DNA from: an uncultured Ruminococcus sp.
Lineage (GTDB): Bacteria; Bacillota; Clostridia; Monoglobales; Monoglobaceae
Assembly (NCBI GenBank): GCA_902791425.1
Contig: CADAVS010000005.1
Coordinates: forward strand, 1 to 36,436
Reading direction: 5' to 3'
Length of the DNA stretch: 36,436 bases
The notes beneath the pieces are model-generated. The model searched no databases. It had not been told where the DNA came from and saw nothing but the letters and a program-made list of their open reading frames with translations. The first letter of the stretch is position 1; each line of letters opens with the position of its first letter. Made by a program: the position numbers and the translations under genes. Shown here piece by piece: positions 2,568-8,575 of this stretch.

Positions 2568-3281
2568 CTATAAATTTCTAATTTTTTTGCCCGACAATTT
2601 CGATAAAATTTCATCAATATTTTTGTCGGAAATATCCAAATCATATGTTTTTTCAGAGATATCCCACAGATAATGAGCATCAGAGCTTGTTACTATATCA
2701 TAATCAGAATATTCAGGCTCCATTTTCGCACGATTTTTTGCCGTAATCTCAACTGTGGTAAAATTCAAATCAGGCGGAATAAAACCTAAGTTTGACAGCA
2801 CACTGTAGCTTGACCTGTCAATATGGGCAGGATATACAACTCCTCCCAAGTCTTTAACATTATTTACAACCGAATATATGTCAAGTCCTGTTGCCGTCAC
2901 CAACAGATTAGGCTCCTCGCCGATAATTTCATCATTCTCGTCCATATAATATTGATTTCCAAATATATCAATCTTATTTTCCACAGGAATACTATTCTTG
3001 CGTATTATCCGCTCCATTTCTTCGGCGGACTCTATATCAGGGAAGAGGCTCACCATATGAACCTCCTCCGCCGTTTCTATTTCCATACCCGGTATTACGA
3101 TAATCTTATTATCTGCAACCTTCATAGCCGCCCTGACATTACCGCAGGCATTGTGGTCGGTTATGGCAATTACATCAAGTCCTTTTAATATTGACATATT
3201 GACAATATTATTCGGCGTCATATCATTATCACCGCAGGGCGACAATGCCGAATGTATGTGCAAATCATAATAAATTTTCAT
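2568..3281 (-). CDS. PHP-domain phosphoesterase
   Basis: A 237-residue PHP (polymerase and histidinol phosphatase) domain protein, a metal-dependent phosphoesterase fold. Metal ligands are visible in order: H8 and H10 (DLHIHS), D42-H43 (ITDHNACG), E67 (MEIET), H75, the YPAHIDRS motif and a C-terminal SSDAHYL motif. It covers a single domain with no polymerase or nuclease partner. The ATG overlaps the stop of the upstream DRTGG gene by 4 nt (ATGA), so the two are translationally coupled. The substrate is unknown. Its position at the end of a putative H2-sensing cluster suggests it hydrolyses a nucleotide or phospho-ester signal, but that is inference. Confidence 0.88.
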   Translation of the reverse strand: MKIYYDLHIHSALSPCGDNDMTPNNIVNMSILKGLDVIAITDHNACGNVRAAMKVADNKIIVIPGMEIETAEEVHMVSLFPDIESAEEMERIIRKNSIPVENKIDIFGNQYYMDENDEIIGEEPNLLVTATGLDIYSVVNNVKDLGGVVYPAHIDRSSYSVLSNLGFIPPDLNFTTVEITAKNRAKMEPEYSDYDIVTSSDAHYLWDISEKTYDLDISDKNIDEILSKLSGKKIRNL

Positions 3282-3610
3282 ATTCCCGACTCCGCAAGTC
3301 CTTTTGCAATTTCATAGGCAGACATCTCGGTTGAAAATATGGTTATTCCCTCCGCCTCCGCCTTTTTGGCTGTGTTCTCGTCAGGCTCAAAACCGTCGGC
3401 TATAATAACACAAGCAGCATCGCCAAGGGAAGCTACCGCAGCAATATTTATGTTTGTTTGAATGGTAATCCACACTGTTCCCTCTTTAACTCTCGCCATT
3501 GCAAGACTCAACAAATCTCCTATGTAACATCCTGTCACTTCGTTTTCGTATCCGCCTTCACCTGTTGCACTTACAAGCTGCAATTTATCAGCAAGCTCTC
3601 TAACATTCAT
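3278..3610 (-). CDS. Stand-alone DRTGG-domain protein (second copy)
   Basis: A 110-residue protein that is essentially one DRTGG domain, the module otherwise found next to CBS domains, in phosphotransacetylases and in HPr-kinase-related proteins. It starts MNVRELADKLQL and keeps the alternating beta/alpha pattern with the late segment IADGFEPDENTAKKAEAEGITIFSTEMSAYEIAKGL, the part most alike to the first copy at 5528-5890 (there RGKVPSQEIIDFAKARGMIIMTTELAMY). No catalytic domain is attached. It lies 18 nt after the hydrogenase-like gene and overlaps the PHP gene by 4 nt. A ligand-binding or protein-interaction role in the cluster is inferred; the ligand is unknown. Confidence 0.83.
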   Translation of the reverse strand: MNVRELADKLQLVSATGEGGYENEVTGCYIGDLLSLAMARVKEGTVWITIQTNINIAAVASLGDAACVIIADGFEPDENTAKKAEAEGITIFSTEMSAYEIAKGLAESGI

Positions 3611-3628
3611 ACCGATACACTCCCATTT

Positions 3629-4900
3629 TTAATTTTCACTATTATTTTCACGCATAAGTCTGCTGTATTTCTCACGTAGCTTAAATATACAATCGTCTTC
3701 GCTGGCATAACCTCTGACGATATCCTCAGCCAAGGTCCGACAGCTTGGCGAACCGCAGGAGCCGCAATCCAACCCCGGCAACTTATCAACTATTTCTTCT
3801 ATTCTTATTGCCATCTGCATTGCAACATTAATGTCATCATTCAACTTCATAACAGGGCTGTACGCAGGCGGTCCGTCCCACATTCTCTCAACACAGTTGT
3901 CTACGCCTCCTGCTTCATCAGGCATCTTCTTGCAAATTCTCTCAATTCTCGCTCTTGCAACAAAGCTGTTTTCTGCCGTCAACGGTCCTCCCACACAGCC
4001 GCCGGGGCACGCCAAAGCCTCTACATAATCTGTGTTCGGCAGTTTGCCGTCCTCGATATCCTCAAGCAGTTTTATTACATTGTGTATTCCGTCAACCGCA
4101 ACACATCTCGGTGCCTCTGTGGCTTGTGCTTCTCCTCCGCTGGTCGCCCACAAGGTACCTACACTTCCCGCGTGGGAAATATCTTTGACCTCATTGATTA
4201 TACTAATTTTTTGGGCAAGCTTTAAATATGTATCCTTTATGGAAATTACACCGTCAACATTGGATTTTTTAACAATTCTCTCGTCCTTAACAGCCGTCGC
4301 CTTTGCGGCACAAGGACTGATAAAGAAAATTCCTATTTCCTCAGGCTTTAATCCCGTTTTATTAACTGCCTCAATCCTTGCCGCCTCAGCAGAAACCTCC
4401 ATAGGTGACTTGAGTGGAATTATATTCTGAATTAAGTCGGGAAAACGCACCGCAATCAGCTTGCAAACAGCAGGGCAAGCCGACGAAATCGCAGGTTTTT
4501 GCAGTTTGTTCTCCTTCAGCAGCTCTCTCGTCTTTCGGGATATTTCCTGTGCACCCACAGCAACCTCAAAAACGTCATCAAAGCCTATATCCGTCAACGC
4601 CGTCAATATAGTGTTGCAATCCTCCGCCTTAGTAAACTGTCCTAAAAACGCAGGTGCAACCAATGCTATTTTATACTTAAATTTATCAAGTATATCAAAT
4701 TTATCCGTGGCCGCCTTTTTTGCGTGATACGGGCAAACACGAATACACTCTCCGCAATCAATACAGCGTTCCTTTAAAATTTTAGCCTTTCCCTGCTGTA
4801 TACGTATTGCATAAGTCGGGCACTGTTTAAGACAATTTGTGCAGCCCTTGCACAAATCCCTTTCAAGCATAACCGAATGCCAATATTTTTCATTCGCCAC
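3629..4900 (-). CDS. Putative sensory [FeFe] hydrogenase (HydS-like, group C/D type)
   Basis: A 423-residue iron-hydrogenase-fold protein. The N-terminus has two [4Fe-4S] ferredoxin motifs (C17, C20, C23, C27 and C46, C49, C52, C56). The H-cluster domain shows L1 SSACPAV with ligand C142, L2 SPCAAK with C197, and L3 ALACPGGC with C298 and C302. Catalytic hydrogenases have Cys-Cys in L1; here the proton-transfer position is A141, as reported for sensory enzymes. A C-terminal four-cysteine FeS domain follows (C379, C382, C387, C404), and no PAS domain is present. The GTG start at 4900 has an AGGAGGGG site. Neighbours are DRTGG, HATPase and PHP genes, not maturases. H2 or redox sensing is inferred from these features. 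Confidence 0.88.
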   Translation of the reverse strand: MANEKYWHSVMLERDLCKGCTNCLKQCPTYAIRIQQGKAKILKERCIDCGECIRVCPYHAKKAATDKFDILDKFKYKIALVAPAFLGQFTKAEDCNTILTALTDIGFDDVFEVAVGAQEISRKTRELLKENKLQKPAISSACPAVCKLIAVRFPDLIQNIIPLKSPMEVSAEAARIEAVNKTGLKPEEIGIFFISPCAAKATAVKDERIVKKSNVDGVISIKDTYLKLAQKISIINEVKDISHAGSVGTLWATSGGEAQATEAPRCVAVDGIHNVIKLLEDIEDGKLPNTDYVEALACPGGCVGGPLTAENSFVARARIERICKKMPDEAGGVDNCVERMWDGPPAYSPVMKLNDDINVAMQMAIRIEEIVDKLPGLDCGSCGSPSCRTLAEDIVRGYASEDDCIFKLREKYSRLMRENNSEN

Positions 4901-4984
4901 TTGGTACCCCTCCTGTCAATATTACATATTTTTATTGTTTACAAAACGTGAAACCTCCATAACAGTATAGCACATAATACCAAA

Positions 4985-5062
4985 CCGAAATAATTTTATT
5001 GAATAATTGCCCTTCGCCCATACAGTTGCCAAGCCCAACTGCATTGATAAAAATTATTTCGG
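4985..5062. repeat. 78-bp inverted-ended repeat, copy 1
   Basis: A small repeat in the 209-nt gap between the RsbW-like gene and the hydrogenase-like gene. The ends are a 13-bp inverted repeat, CCGAAATAATTTT (4985-4997) and its complement (5050-5062). Inside is a hairpin CAGTTG-CCAAGCC-CAACTG. The reverse complement matches copy 2 at 6075-6158 over its whole length, including the identical hairpin and the AT-rich ends. The rest of the gap (4901-4984, 5063-5109) shows only the ribosome binding site of the hydrogenase gene and no clear promoter. Confidence 0.75.
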
Positions 5063-5109
5063 ATTTTGCAGAACATTCTCCACAGCTCACAATCGCCTAA
5101 TATTATACT

Positions 5110-5535
5110 CTATTTCACGTTAATAACCAAATCTATGGTCGTTCCCTCACCTATAACCGTGTCTATCTTCATACTGTCAGAGTTGCTTTTAATATTGGGC
5201 AAGCCCATTCCTGCACCAAATCCCAACTCACGTATCTCGTTGGATGCAGTTGAATACCCCTCTTGCATAGCCTTTTCAATATCGGGTATTCCGGGTCCCT
5301 TGTCCGCAAATACAATATGAATTTTCTCAGGCGTAATCTCAACATCTATATAGCCGCCGTCTGCGTGTATAACCATATTAATCTCCGCCTCATACATAGC
5401 AATCGCAACTCTGCGGATTACCTCAGGAGGAAGTCCCAACTGACGCAGACGCTTTTTGACATTTGCCGAGGTAGCACCTGCCAAGGTAAAATCCTGACCG
5501 TCTACATCATAGTGAAGTTTAATTGTATCAGCCAA
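5110..5535 (-). CDS. RsbW/RsbT-like serine-kinase-type ATPase
   Basis: A 141-residue single-domain GHKL ATPase like anti-sigma factor kinases. The N-box is YEAEINMVIHA, G1 is DKGPGI and the lid/G2 region GFGAGMGLPNIKSN; no other domain is attached. I chose the TTG at 5535 (protein begins MADTIKLHYD) because AAAGGCGG lies about 10 nt upstream. A longer reading back to 5604 would run far into the DRTGG gene in another frame. The chosen start overlaps the upstream stop by 8 nt. In this cluster it may phosphorylate or partner-switch with another protein, but no anti-anti-sigma (STAS) or sigma gene is nearby, so the target is unknown. Confidence 0.87.
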   Translation of the reverse strand: MADTIKLHYDVDGQDFTLAGATSANVKKRLRQLGLPPEVIRRVAIAMYEAEINMVIHADGGYIDVEITPEKIHIVFADKGPGIPDIEKAMQEGYSTASNEIRELGFGAGMGLPNIKSNSDSMKIDTVIGEGTTIDLVINVK

Positions 5536-5890
5536 GCTTAACCGCCGCCTTTCTGCTTTGCAAGCCGTTTGAATATAACAATCCGCACGACACATACATA
5601 GCAAGCTCGGTTGTCATTATAATCATACCACGTGCTTTTGCAAAATCAATAATTTCCTGACTTGGCACCTTTCCTCTGACAAAGACCACCGCCTCAATGT
5701 CCATCATTTCAGCAGTTCTCAAAACCTGTAAATTCTGCAATCCCGTCAGCAACAACGCACGTTCCTTTACAAAAGCGAGAACATCGCTCATCAAATCGCT
5801 TCCACAGGCTTCATTTACCTCTACATCAAGCATATCTTCACCGGCATATACTTCCGCATTCAACAGTTCCTTAACCTCCGAAAGTTTCAC
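5528..5890 (-). CDS. Stand-alone DRTGG-domain protein (first gene of sensory cluster)
   Basis: A roughly 120-residue protein made of a single DRTGG domain (KLSEVKELLNAEVYAG at the N-terminus, later VVFVRGKVPSQEIIDFAK and MIIMTTELAMY). I chose the GTG at 5890 (MKLSEVKELL) because GAAAGG sits about 9 nt upstream; the ATG at 5899 directly abuts that site. It is the first gene after the promoter at 5935-5963 and overlaps the ATPase gene by 8 nt. It is a distant paralogue of the protein at 3278-3610. DRTGG domains are regulatory modules of unknown ligand; what it senses is not visible. Confidence 0.85.
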   Translation of the reverse strand: MKLSEVKELLNAEVYAGEDMLDVEVNEACGSDLMSDVLAFVKERALLLTGLQNLQVLRTAEMMDIEAVVFVRGKVPSQEIIDFAKARGMIIMTTELAMYVSCGLLYSNGLQSRKAAVKLG

Positions 5891-5934
5891 AAAAATCATC
5901 CTTTCACTTGTCGCTTTTTTATTTTATTAACCTT

Positions 5935-5963
5935 AGAATATCACACAATTTAATAATTTGCAA
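5935..5963 (-). promoter_or_regulatory. Promoter of the DRTGG-ATPase-hydrogenase cluster
   Basis: On the minus strand TTGCAA (plus 5958-5963) and TATTCT (5935-5940) are separated by exactly 17 nt, about 45 nt upstream of the GTG start at 5890. It is the only good sigma-A-type pair seen upstream of the cluster. It stands back-to-back with the csaB promoter at 5992-6020. Confidence 0.6.
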
Positions 5964-6020: not shown

Positions 6021-6074
6021 ACATAATAATATAGTGTAACTATAGACGTTTGTAAATTCGGAAAGCTCTCTGTA

Positions 6075-6158
6075 AAATTCAAAATAATTTTTCATCGCAG
6101 TTGGGCTTGGCAACTGTTTGAGCTTCGGGCAACTATTAAATAAAATTATTTTGAATTT
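6075..6158. repeat. 84-bp inverted-ended repeat, copy 2
   Basis: The ends are a perfect 17-bp inverted repeat, AAATTCAAAATAATTTT (6075-6091) and its complement (6142-6158). Inside, GCAGTTGGGCTTGGCAACTG forms the same 6-bp hairpin with 7-nt loop as copy 1 in opposite orientation. The terminal arms differ from copy 1 on both sides in matching fashion (CCGAAAT versus TCAAAAT), so pairing is kept. It lies in the leader of the csaB-fusion gene. It may be a MITE-like element or a structured RNA. Confidence 0.75.
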
Positions 6159-6283
6159 GTAGTATGTACAATCCTTTTATGAAATTTCACGTTTTACAAA
6201 CAGCTAAATATAACATAGCCCTGCGGATAAGAGAAAACCAATTATTATTTGTGCCGATGCAGGGCGGCGGAACGGAGATTACT

Positions 6284-8575
6284 ATGCGGGTTTTAATGAC
6301 GACAATGCAGCTTGATATAGGCGGTGCAGAAACACATATAATTGAACTGTCAAAGGCTTTGAAAAAACGTGGTATTGACATTACTGTTGCCTCAAACGGC
6401 GGTGCGTATGAAAAAGAGCTTAAAGACGCCGGTATTCCCCACGTAAAAATTCCTTTTCACAGCAAAAATCCTATTGCTATGCTTAAGGCATATAAGCTTT
6501 TAAAACAGCTTATCTTTAAAGAAAGATTTGATATAGTCCACGCCCACGCAAGAATCCCTGCCTTTTTGTGTTCTGTCTTACACAAGCGGTATCACTTCCG
6601 CTTTGTCACGACAGCACATTGGGTATTTACAACACGTTTTCCCTATAATCTGCTCACAAATTGGGGTGAGCGTTCTCTTGCAGTCAGTGACGATATAAAA
6701 TCATATCTTATTGATAACTATGGAATTAAACCCGAGAATATTCGTGTAACCATAAACGGTATTGATTTGGAAAAATTTTCGTCCGACACAGATTACTCAG
6801 ATGTCGCATCTGAATTTTCATTGGAGGAAAACAAAAGACGTATTGTTTACGTAAGCCGAATGGACGAGGACAGAAGCCTTGCCGCACACAAGCTTATTGA
6901 GGCAAGTGAAGCACTTGTCAAAGAATTTGATAATTTGGAAATAGTTATTGTCGGTGGCGGCAACGATTATCAAAATATAAAGGCTGAGGCAGACGCAATA
7001 AACCAAAAATTAAGCAAACGCCTTATCATAACAACAGACAGCAGAACCGACATTAACAAATTCACCGCCTCAGGTGAAATTTTTGTTGGTGTCAGCAGAG
7101 CCGCACTCGAAGCAATGGCGTGCAAAAAACCGTCTATTATTGCCGGCAACGAAGGTTATATCGGTATTTTTGACCAAGATAAATTACAAATCTCCTATGA
7201 TACCAACTTCTGTTGCAGAGGTTGCGAGCAGACAACAACCGAAAAGCTGACTGATGATATCCGCAGACTTTTAAACGCACCGAGAGAAGAGCTTGAAAGG
7301 CTCGGAAAGTTCTCACACGATATTGTGGCGGAGCATTATTCTATGAAAACAATGGCAGATGATGCAATAAAGATGTATATATCTGTTATCAAAAACAGCT
7401 TGATTAATGAAGTTTCCGAGGAGGAGTTTGCCTCCATAGATAATTATCTCATTCCAAACCCCTTAAGAGACAGGAGTGCGGATTCTGACGTTATTATCTC
7501 AGGTTATTACGGCTTTGGCAATAGCGGTGACGACTCTATCTTATACGCCATAGTACACGAGCTTAAGACATTGCGGCCCGACATCAGGATTGTCGCTCTG
7601 TCAAACACTCCGAAAAAGACCGCTGAAATATACGGCATAAAATCAATCAGCAGAGTCAACTTTTTGAGTATACTGTATCATATGCGTTGTACAAAATTAT
7701 TAATCAGCGGCGGCGGAAGTCTGATACAAAACGTCACATCAAACAAATCTTTGGCGTATTACCTTTTTATAATAAACACAGCAATCAGACTGAAGAAAAA
7801 GGTTATGCTGTACGCAAACGGCATAGGGCCTTTGGACAATGACGTAAATTCCAACGCAATATACAAGGTGTTGAATAATGTCGATTTGATAACTCTGCGT
7901 GAGCCTTCATCACTTGAGGAACTGAAACGCTTTAATATAACAAAGCCCGTCATAGAGGTTACGGCAGACCCTGCATTTAACTTGTTCCCTGCGGACGACA
8001 GTGAGGTTAATGAGTTATTGAACCATTCGGGCTTGCCCGAAAACACCAAATATTGCGTTATGGCAATGCGTCCCTGGAAAACAATGCCCTCTGATTTTTC
8101 AAAACAAATTTCACAGGTGTGCGACTATATTAAAGAAAAATATAATACAGAAACTGTTTTTATTAAAATGCAGCCTACACGCGACGGTAAAGTTACTGAT
8201 GAAATCGCACATAATACAAAGGCAAAATCATATGTTATAAATGATAATCTGTCCTCTGCACAGGCATTGGGAATAATAAAAAATGCCGAATTTGTGATAG
8301 GTATGCGGCTCCATACACTTATATATGCCGCCAAATGCGAAACCCCTGTTATCGGATTGGTATACGACCCTAAAATCACATCTATTATGAAGTATATGAA
8401 TCAACATTATCGTGTTCCCATAGAGGACCCAAACCCTCTCACCCTTTGCAGATATATAGATGAAATTATCGAAAATCGTAGTTCAATTTCATTATCATTG
8501 CACGACATATCAAATACGTTTTCCGAAAAAGCGTTGGATAACGCAAGGCTTGCACTTAACTTAATCAAAGACTAA
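6284..8575 (+). CDS. csaB: Glycosyltransferase family 4 / polysaccharide pyruvyl transferase CsaB fusion
   Basis: A two-domain cell-envelope enzyme. Residues about 1-375 are a GT-B glycosyltransferase (GT4-like) starting MRVLMTTMQLDIGGAETH, with EAMACKKPSIIAGNEG in the sugar-nucleotide site. Residues about 400-763 are a polysaccharide pyruvyl transferase (SGYYGFGNSGDDSILYAI at its start, GMRLHTLIYAAKCETPVIG near the end). CsaB ketal-pyruvylates secondary cell-wall polymer, which SLH-domain proteins bind. The ATG at 6284 has ACGGAG upstream; the frame stays open back to 6164, but those codons look unlike the family N-terminus. The gene stands alone between its own promoter and a terminator. 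Donor and acceptor sugars are not visible. Confidence 0.88.
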   Translation: MRVLMTTMQLDIGGAETHIIELSKALKKRGIDITVASNGGAYEKELKDAGIPHVKIPFHSKNPIAMLKAYKLLKQLIFKERFDIVHAHARIPAFLCSVLHKRYHFRFVTTAHWVFTTRFPYNLLTNWGERSLAVSDDIKSYLIDNYGIKPENIRVTINGIDLEKFSSDTDYSDVASEFSLEENKRRIVYVSRMDEDRSLAAHKLIEASEALVKEFDNLEIVIVGGGNDYQNIKAEADAINQKLSKRLIITTDSRTDINKFTASGEIFVGVSRAALEAMACKKPSIIAGNEGYIGIFDQDKLQISYDTNFCCRGCEQTTTEKLTDDIRRLLNAPREELERLGKFSHDIVAEHYSMKTMADDAIKMYISVIKNSLINEVSEEEFASIDNYLIPNPLRDRSADSDVIISGYYGFGNSGDDSILYAIVHELKTLRPDIRIVALSNTPKKTAEIYGIKSISRVNFLSILYHMRCTKLLISGGGSLIQNVTSNKSLAYYLFIINTAIRLKKKVMLYANGIGPLDNDVNSNAIYKVLNNVDLITLREPSSLEELKRFNITKPVIEVTADPAFNLFPADDSEVNELLNHSGLPENTKYCVMAMRPWKTMPSDFSKQISQVCDYIKEKYNTETVFIKMQPTRDGKVTDEIAHNTKAKSYVINDNLSSAQALGIIKNAEFVIGMRLHTLIYAAKCETPVIGLVYDPKITSIMKYMNQHYRVPIEDPNPLTLCRYIDEIIENRSSISLSLHDISNTFSEKALDNARLALNLIKD

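Follow-up and report, generated by a model that had tools for sequence, protein, structure and literature searches.

Five neighbouring minus-strand genes of an uncultured Ruminococcus sp., a gut bacterium, probably form a switch that responds to H2 or energy status and acts on the node where NADH, ferredoxin and H2 meet; we put the chance of this at about two in three. A group D [FeFe]-hydrogenase (HydS) would be the sensor of the switch, an RsbW-like ATPase its transmitter and two DRTGG-domain proteins its receivers, biochemical roles that we infer. The genes lie in a window of 36,436 nt, the whole stretch of DNA that was analysed (contig CADAVS010000005.1), and all coordinates given below are positions in it.

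Gene layout and conservation of the module

A preliminary description of the window had placed five minus-strand genes here, and open reading frames and Pfam domain matches agreed that they are real. They encode DRTGG1 (5528–5899), an RsbW/SpoIIAB-like GHKL ATPase, the putative transmitter (5110 to about 5535), HydS (3629–4900), DRTGG2 (3278–3610) and a PHP phosphoesterase (2568–3281). The ATPase probably starts at a TTG (5535–5533) that overlaps the stop of DRTGG1; the default call of its reading frame begins at 5604.

The genes had been described as overlapping or closely spaced and as served by one promoter. Overlaps of stop and start were indeed seen, but the ATPase and hydrogenase genes are 209 nt apart, and within this gap lies a copy (4958–5095) of a dispersed repeat of ~95 bp that carries an internal inverted repeat. 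Some 25 copies occur genome-wide, a second one, inverted, lying upstream of DRTGG1 (6069–6181). The repeat element splits the five-gene set in this genome. The single promoter was not upheld: the repeat interrupts the gap, and the promoter and terminator scans were consensus matching only, so that the 27 promoter-like sites returned against 14 expected in this AT-rich stretch were not counted as evidence. The Rfam scan gave tRNA only.

Further along the minus strand follow a NuoE-like subunit of a bifurcating hydrogenase (HndA/HydC, by profile matches; 1892–2380), a second lone HATPase protein that is kept in hnd operons (HATPase2; 1347–1889), a 2Fe-2S thioredoxin-like ferredoxin (HndB-like; 936–1313) and NuoF/HndC (1–900), which is cut at the contig start. 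The remainder of NuoF/HndC was found with a group A HydA on another contig (C105) of the same genome, which also encodes a complete maturase HydG and a HydF cut at a contig end. The gap between PHP and NuoE is 187 nt here (median, 76 nt; 30 nt or less in only 11 of 73 loci), and because it is wider, the hnd genes may have a promoter of their own.

Loci were annotated with HMMs built from clean alignments, which told RsbW apart from HATPase2 and DRTGG1 apart from DRTGG2. Among 249 genomes of the phylum, the RsbW orthologue occurred in 98 and the group D hydrogenase in 92, with both present in 91 (Fisher p about 2e-58, not corrected for phylogeny); DRTGG1 had an orthologue in 90. The order DRTGG1-RsbW-HydS-DRTGG2-PHP, for which a synteny search had been proposed, was met in more than 100 loci, reaching Deltaproteobacteria and Halanaerobiales. 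Over 156 loci, DRTGG1 adjoined RsbW in 131, RsbW adjoined HydS in 138, HydS adjoined DRTGG2 in 132 and DRTGG2 adjoined PHP in 124. Stop/start overlaps are common in the module, the median gap being −4 nt for three of the four junctions. Sequence, synteny and fusions show the inheritance of a group D hydrogenase to be all but tied to that of one specific RsbW/SpoIIAB-type ATPase; a PHP protein with intact metal-ligand motifs and two DRTGG proteins nearly always accompany the pair.

Natural fusions also occur, joining DRTGG1 to RsbW in 7 loci, RsbW to HydS in one (L117, 626 aa), HydS to DRTGG2 in two (L118, L119), and PHP to HATPase2 in 5. Several of these come from related families, so the independent fusion events are fewer than the counts. 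In one locus (L116) the module has decayed together: both DRTGG genes and hnd are kept, RsbW is lost, and HydS and PHP persist as remnants. Neither DRTGG1 nor RsbW is strictly required, since the former is absent from one set of families (e.g. L198–L200, L202) and the latter from L028/L032. HydS is absent in at least 6 genomes, in 3 of which the ATPase bears an N-terminal pair of CBS domains; tandem CBS fused to RsbW was found without HydS in L109–L112 and with it in L127. The HydS-less genomes with a CBS-ATPase suggest that the input is swappable.

The module most often neighbours HydABC, and sometimes Rnf or formate dehydrogenase (FDH). At least 14 loci hold the five genes and no hnd gene in the stretch covered, some of these stretches being short. 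Control of the downstream hnd genes by H2 or redox state had been proposed: the sensory part of that proposal is supported, but hnd as the only target is too narrow, because the module also occurs with Rnf or FDH or alone and, in genomes without HydS, the input can come from CBS domains.

DRTGG proteins and the PHP phosphoesterase

Both small proteins belong to the DRTGG domain family by domain score and fold. Against Pfam PF07085 (cut-off, 25.2 bits) the stand-alone DRTGG2 (110 aa) scored 30.3 bits, and DRTGG1, also stand-alone (123 aa), scored 24.6 bits, just below the cut-off. Their models were confident (AlphaFold pLDDT of 91.5 for DRTGG1; pLDDT of 97.1 for DRTGG2). Foldseek placed the DRTGG domains of 2ioj and 3l2b/3l31 on top for DRTGG1, followed by the HPr kinase N-domain, and returned 2ioj and 3l2b for DRTGG2; the 2ioj matches had E values of 2e-6 and 3e-5. 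In an alignment of 30 diverse DRTGG1 orthologues a D35-x-x-S38 motif (5786–5797, minus strand) was invariant. The generic DRTGG structure 2ioj does not show this motif, which is a candidate phospho-acceptor or ligand site; in the model it sits in a predicted loop/helix start, where ligand binding would be equally possible. The invariant residues of aligned DRTGG2 are D32, L34, S35 and T49.

The PHP protein has the full motif set (HxH, DH, E, H, H, DxH), and its metal ligands (H8, H10, D42, H43, E67, H75, H153, D201 and H203) were 100% kept in 46 orthologues. Its nearest relatives by profile, nucleoside bisphosphate phosphatase and RNase AM-type PHP proteins, act on nucleotides and not on proteins.

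That resemblance favours a nucleotide second-messenger unit, in which DRTGG binds Ap4A, AMP or a related nucleotide, PHP degrades it, and HydS and RsbW only tune PHP. The DRTGG folds, which match Ap4A/AMP-binding CBS-DRTGG regions such as that of the C. perfringens pyrophosphatase, point the same way, as do the CBS domains as alternative input. Yet the module comes without a nucleotide synthase, its DRTGG copies carry the D-x-x-S that 2ioj lacks, and PHP is missing from some loci (L016, L023, L025, L197), including modules that are otherwise complete. We regard this reading as rather unlikely.

The hydrogenase and the ATPase

By all published group D signatures, the window hydrogenase (423 aa) is a HydS-type enzyme of group D (M2e), to which the putative sensor TamHydS also belongs. 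Pfam recognised Fe_hyd_lg_C, an FeS domain and two 4Fe-4S domains, and no PAS domain. The protein runs from two N-terminal [4Fe-4S] sites through the H-domain to a C-terminal Cx2Cx4Cx16C (C379, C382, C387, C404). As had been claimed, the H-cluster ligands C142, C197, C298 and C302 are all present, and they were invariant in 140 relatives. Residue 141, in the L1 motif S139-S-A141-C142-P143 (SSACP; 4472–4486, minus strand), is indeed Ala in place of the proton-transfer Cys; the relatives have Ala (98), Ser (35), Thr (5), Asn (1) or His (1), and never Cys. The group D rule is replacement of Cys299 (by Ala) and of Met353 by Ser/Thr (PMC8163306); S195 occupies the Met353 position here, with S, T or A among the relatives. 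The alternative proton path Glu-Glu-Ser/Thr-Asp, defined in PMC10407848, is kept as well (E257 in 135, E294 in 140 and D270 in 126 of the 140), and the position of S254 is S/T in 86. These signatures, the proton path included, support the sensory-type reading given earlier. In a FastTree tree that took in the A, B and C proteins of this genome but not TamHydS, HydS fell in a separate D clade of 26 (support 0.78), ruling out group B; the missing PAS domain ruled out group C.

The sensor might instead read the redox state of ferredoxin or NADH and not H2 itself, and the true output at the level of transcription would then be Rex. In 7 loci (L116, L120, L122, L139, L147, L158, L159) Rex lies immediately upstream and is translationally coupled, in others it is nearby, and HydS-less modules exist. 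A pure ferredoxin sensor, however, would have no need of invariant H-cluster ligands and a kept proton path. The Rex gene of the window genome is on another contig, and a search of the window for the operator TTGTTAAN4TTAACAA gave 5 three-mismatch matches against 6.4 expected, not above chance, and none upstream of the module. We consider this unlikely.

It is less likely still that HydS works as a slow catalyst or as a redox subunit through which electrons enter or leave HydABC, the ATPase, DRTGG and PHP proteins serving in assembly or quality control of the bifurcating complex and not in a signal chain. The 4Fe-4S wire at the N-terminus and the alternative proton path are kept, TamHydS does turn over, and module and hnd genes are interleaved in many loci (e.g. 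L034, L035, L037); but the TamHydS activity is only about 0.1 μmol H2/mg/min (PMC10407848), and this role fits poorly with the loci that hold the five genes without hnd or beside Rnf or FDH.

The ATPase matched Pfam HATPase_c_2, and among solved structures its closest relatives are SpoIIAB anti-sigma F proteins. Across 28 orthologues its kinase motifs (N-box E51/N55, D80-x-G-x-G84 and GFGAGMG) varied little or not at all. Against curated NCBIfam families it scored 51 bits (cut-off 135) for spIIAB, the top match being anti-sigma F, and 22 bits (cut-off 145) for RsbW; orthology to anti-sigma F or B was thereby ruled out. The orthologue set is clean, at 162 bits or more, the next matches, SpoIIAB-like proteins of the same genomes, reaching 72 at most. 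A two-component system was ruled out, as Pfam found no HisKA or receiver domain in the five proteins. Classical transcriptional partner switching, with the ATPase as an anti-sigma factor holding an alternative sigma and DRTGG replacing the STAS antagonist, would suit the SpoIIAB likeness and the intact motifs, but it is very doubtful given the low family scores, the distance from same-genome SpoIIAB-like proteins and the lack of a recurrent STAS or sigma gene in the neighbourhoods read; such partners could lie elsewhere.

Proposed mechanism and comparison with known systems

TamHydS works slowly, and H2 leaves its C-terminal cluster unreduced (PMC8163306, PMC10407848, PMC13104023), the 2026 study arguing against reduction of that cluster as the signal (PMC13104023); the signal therefore has to reach a partner by contact. 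In the H2/energy-responsive switch that we favour, HydS would sense H2 or the H2/ferredoxin redox state, turning over slowly via the alternative Glu path and changing its conformation in response to H2; direct contact would carry this change to the RsbW-like ATPase. The ATPase would then phosphorylate the DRTGG proteins, or bind them in an ATP-dependent manner, with the invariant D-x-x-S or its surroundings as the probable site, and the state of DRTGG and ATPase would adjust the activity or expression of HydABC or Rnf. PHP may reset the switch, either by dephosphorylating protein or by taking away a nucleotide bound to DRTGG. Where HydS is lacking, CBS domains fused to the ATPase could serve as input for adenylate charge. 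For these proteins we found no published interaction, kinase activity or response to H2.

A more specific version, which we offer only tentatively and think improbable, is a so far unrecognised family of phospho-switches whose input can be exchanged: a GHKL kinase that forms a separate family would phosphorylate DRTGG at the invariant D-x-x-S, PHP would remove the phosphate, and either a hydrogenase (H2) or tandem CBS (adenylates) would set HydABC, Rnf or FDH, in some genomes with Rex. If true, one module would couple H2, NADH and ATP status. Earlier proposals cast group D hydrogenases as H2 sensors but knew of no output, for which the conserved, fused partners are named candidates; because they are now named, H2 sensing in fermenting anaerobes becomes directly testable. 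H2 control of bifurcating hydrogenase is relevant to fermentation, syntrophy and rumen methane.

The wiring of the sensor had been called poorly understood, sensory hydrogenases as such being known. This holds for the partners, as a DRTGG/ATPase/PHP wiring was not found in the searchable literature, where an earlier mention of DRTGG, e.g. in Calusinska 2010 or Zheng 2014, is possible; but group D itself and a place upstream of HydABC beside a kinase-like gene are already published (Land 2020, PMC8163306; Carere 2012, PMC3561251). What is new here is the partner wiring of a group D hydrogenase, not the hydrogenase group or its HydABC context.

TamHydS of Thermoanaerobacter mathranii (Land 2020, PMC8163306; Cabotaje 2023, PMC10407848; Schumann 2026, PMC13104023) has the same domain layout, with the C-terminal Cx2Cx4Cx16C and no PAS. 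It shares Ala for Cys299, Ser for Met353 and Leu for Met497, its E252, E289, D265 and S249 correspond to E257, E294, D270 and S254 of HydS, and it too lies upstream of a trimeric bifurcating hydrogenase, beside a histidine kinase-like ATPase. According to Schumann 2026 (PMC13104023), there is little knowledge of the complexes in which it functions in its native host. In its papers we found no mention of a DRTGG or PHP partner, whereas the module described here shows a specific set of partners, natural fusions and a swap of the input. Group C (M2f) proteins, such as TmHydS and a PAS+SpoIIE gene pair on contig C54 of this genome, have the same sensor fold and also miss the proton-transfer Cys, but carry fused PAS and HK/PP2C/MCP outputs, of which HydS, in its separate clade, has none. 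The anti-sigma serine kinases RsbW and SpoIIAB have the GHKL fold and complete N, G1 and G2 motifs in common with the ATPase, which differs in falling far below their curated cut-offs and in having DRTGG and not STAS neighbours. The family II pyrophosphatase CBS-DRTGG region (PDB 3l2b, 3l31) and AF1212 (2ioj) share the DRTGG fold, and the HydS-less variants likewise bring CBS and DRTGG together in one system; unlike those structures, the DRTGG proteins of the module stand alone, are paired with a GHKL ATPase and carry D-x-x-S.

Gene set and the group D hydrogenase

The preliminary description had placed five minus-strand genes at this site, and Pfam and NCBIfam agreed on every one of them: DRTGG1, an RsbW-like GHKL ATPase, a 423-aa [FeFe]-hydrogenase (HydS), DRTGG2 and PHP (2568-5899, minus strand). 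Beyond PHP come NuoE, another lone HATPase (HATPase2), a 2Fe-2S protein and NuoF, which is cut by the contig start; a different contig of this genome, C105, carries the rest of the hnd operon (NuoF C-terminus and group A HydA). The genes had also been called overlapping or closely spaced. This was retained for DRTGG1 and the ATPase, whose start is probably TTG 5535, overlapping the DRTGG1 stop, but not for the ATPase and HydS, which are 209 nt apart. The gap holds one copy of a ~95-bp repeat that itself contains an inverted repeat (29 matches in the genome, ~25 near full length). Since the gap is <50 nt in the nearest relatives (L004 and L005, hydrogenase 97% identical), the repeat is a local insertion. 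Two mutually inverted copies of this MITE-like element (4958-5095 and 6069-6181) flank the DRTGG1-RsbW pair, the second lying upstream of DRTGG1; two near-full-length copies also sit just downstream of hydA on C105. A divergent 803-aa ORF occupies 6164-8575; its first half is glycosyltransferase-like, and its other half is a different domain, polysaccharide pyruvyl transferase-like as judged by eye.

HydS has Ala in place of the proton-transfer Cys (A141), Ser in place of Met353 (S195) and Leu in place of Met497 (L296). Its alternative proton path, E257-E294-S254-D270, has the same spacing as E252-E289-S249-D265 of TamHydS, the putative sensory enzyme of Thermoanaerobacter mathranii. The layout and signature residues given for group D (M2e) in PMC8163306 (Land et al.) and PMC10407848 (Cabotaje et al.) were all matched. 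Comparison with 140 relatives bore out the loss of the Cys with retention of the H-cluster ligands: residue 141 was Cys in none, while the ligands and E294 were invariant. In a tree built without TamHydS, HydS formed a clade apart from the group A, group B and PAS-bearing group C proteins also encoded by this genome. Because layout, residues and separate clade agree, membership of group D is well supported at the sequence level. The genome can probably assemble H-clusters, as it has a complete HydG and a HydF truncated by a contig end.

The PAS-bearing group C gene adjoins a SpoIIE-type phosphatase gene, followed by an apparent group B hydrogenase N-terminus (L063, contig C54, 3-3404). The genome thus pairs group C with group B, and group D with group A. 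The kinase of the group D side and the phosphatase of the group C side could share one substrate.

Conservation, fusions and losses

A genome scan across species, in which loci were picked by hydrogenase, yielded 55 relatives. The five-gene order, for which a synteny check had been proposed, was complete in 42 of them, and contig ends cut many of the remainder. Because the hydrogenase had served to choose these loci, co-occurrence was also tested independently in 249 genomes of the phylum, sampled from >100 families and counted irrespective of kinship. An ATPase orthologue (>=162 bits; next match 72) was present in 98, a group D hydrogenase in 92, and both in 91. Over 156 loci (clean profiles), adjacency was observed for DRTGG1-RsbW in 131, RsbW-HydS in 138, HydS-DRTGG2 in 132 and DRTGG2-PHP in 124; at three of these four junctions the genes usually overlap, start to stop.

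Fusions were found for DRTGG1 with the ATPase (L120, L121, L122, L139, L147, L158, L159), the ATPase with HydS (L117), HydS with DRTGG2 (L118, L119) and PHP with the second HATPase (L146, L151, L166, L169, L194). This chain of fusions between neighbouring genes, several from related families, indicates that the encoded proteins are probably direct partners.

Seven genomes had the ATPase without a group D hydrogenase; discounting G236, whose ATPase lies at a contig end, six remain (G009, G036, G090, G117, G150, G159). In three of these (loci L109/L110, L111, L112) the ATPase bears an N-terminal tandem CBS pair, a form that occurred together with HydS once (L127). CBS appears at two places on the ATPase tree, the second weakly supported. 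L116 (5165-6493) keeps DRTGG1, DRTGG2 and hnd but has lost RsbW; two remnants are left of HydS and a fragment of PHP, a co-decay of sensor, kinase and PHP. The HydS-less CBS-ATPases and the L116 pattern suggest that HydS and CBS serve as alternative inputs to an ATPase/DRTGG core.

In L150, RsbW-HydS is directly followed by a hydrogenase with a fused methyl-accepting chemotaxis domain (6611-8524), and L176 has a similar ORF. These genomes carry their two DRTGG genes as a pair on another contig (G126 C36, G182 C58, G156 C188).

Neighbouring enzymes

Control of the downstream hnd genes had been proposed. Of the 144 loci with a hydrogenase, 101 did contain NuoF of HydABC, in some cases divergently placed, but hnd is not the sole context. 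RnfC lies next to the module in L048, L127, L190 and HydS-less L110, and in deltaproteobacterial L055 the module is accompanied by NuoEF with a molybdopterin/FDH-type subunit. In seven loci Rex and the first module gene overlap by 4 nt; HydS-less L113 has Rex nearby, along with a multihaem cytochrome and NfnAB-like genes. Judged from gene neighbourhoods, what these contexts share is the NADH/ferredoxin/H2 node. In L123 and L124, DRTGG2 stands alone before NuoE-HATPase2-Fdx-NuoF, with no DRTGG1, RsbW or HydS, which suggests HydABC as the target of DRTGG2, perhaps jointly with HATPase2.

Proposed signalling and known systems

The RsbW-like ATPase retains its GHKL kinase motifs, and the PHP metal site is complete. 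The confidently predicted models of DRTGG1 (pLDDT 91.5) and DRTGG2 (pLDDT 97.1) resemble DRTGG domains that adjoin Ap4A/AMP-binding CBS domains, and the N-domain of HPr kinase. Both share an invariant D-x-x-S at a helix start following a strand, a position that would fit either a phosphoserine or a ligand; the solved DRTGG structure 2ioj (AF1212) lacks this motif.

In the most economical model, HydS would sense and signal to the RsbW-like kinase, which would act, presumably by phosphorylation, on DRTGG1/2 as receivers; PHP would erase the signal, and the target enzymes would be affected. Synteny, co-loss and fusion all speak for the link between sensor and ATPase. H2 leaves the C-terminal cluster of TamHydS unreduced (PMC13104023); the signal is therefore more likely conformational by analogy, and the model fits this finding.

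In the searchable literature, DRTGG and hydrogenase were co-mentioned in one paper, which uses each word once; the DRTGG-domain papers retrieved deal with pyrophosphatases, phosphotransacetylase and Ap4A. RsbW was unmentioned in the top matches for RsbW with hydrogenase terms. Earlier work had already placed sensory group D hydrogenases upstream of HydABC and beside a kinase-like gene (Land 2020, PMC8163306; Carere 2012, PMC3561251). As far as could be checked, the near-obligate ATPase partner, the DRTGG pair, the fusions, the CBS swap and the Rnf, FDH and Rex contexts are new.
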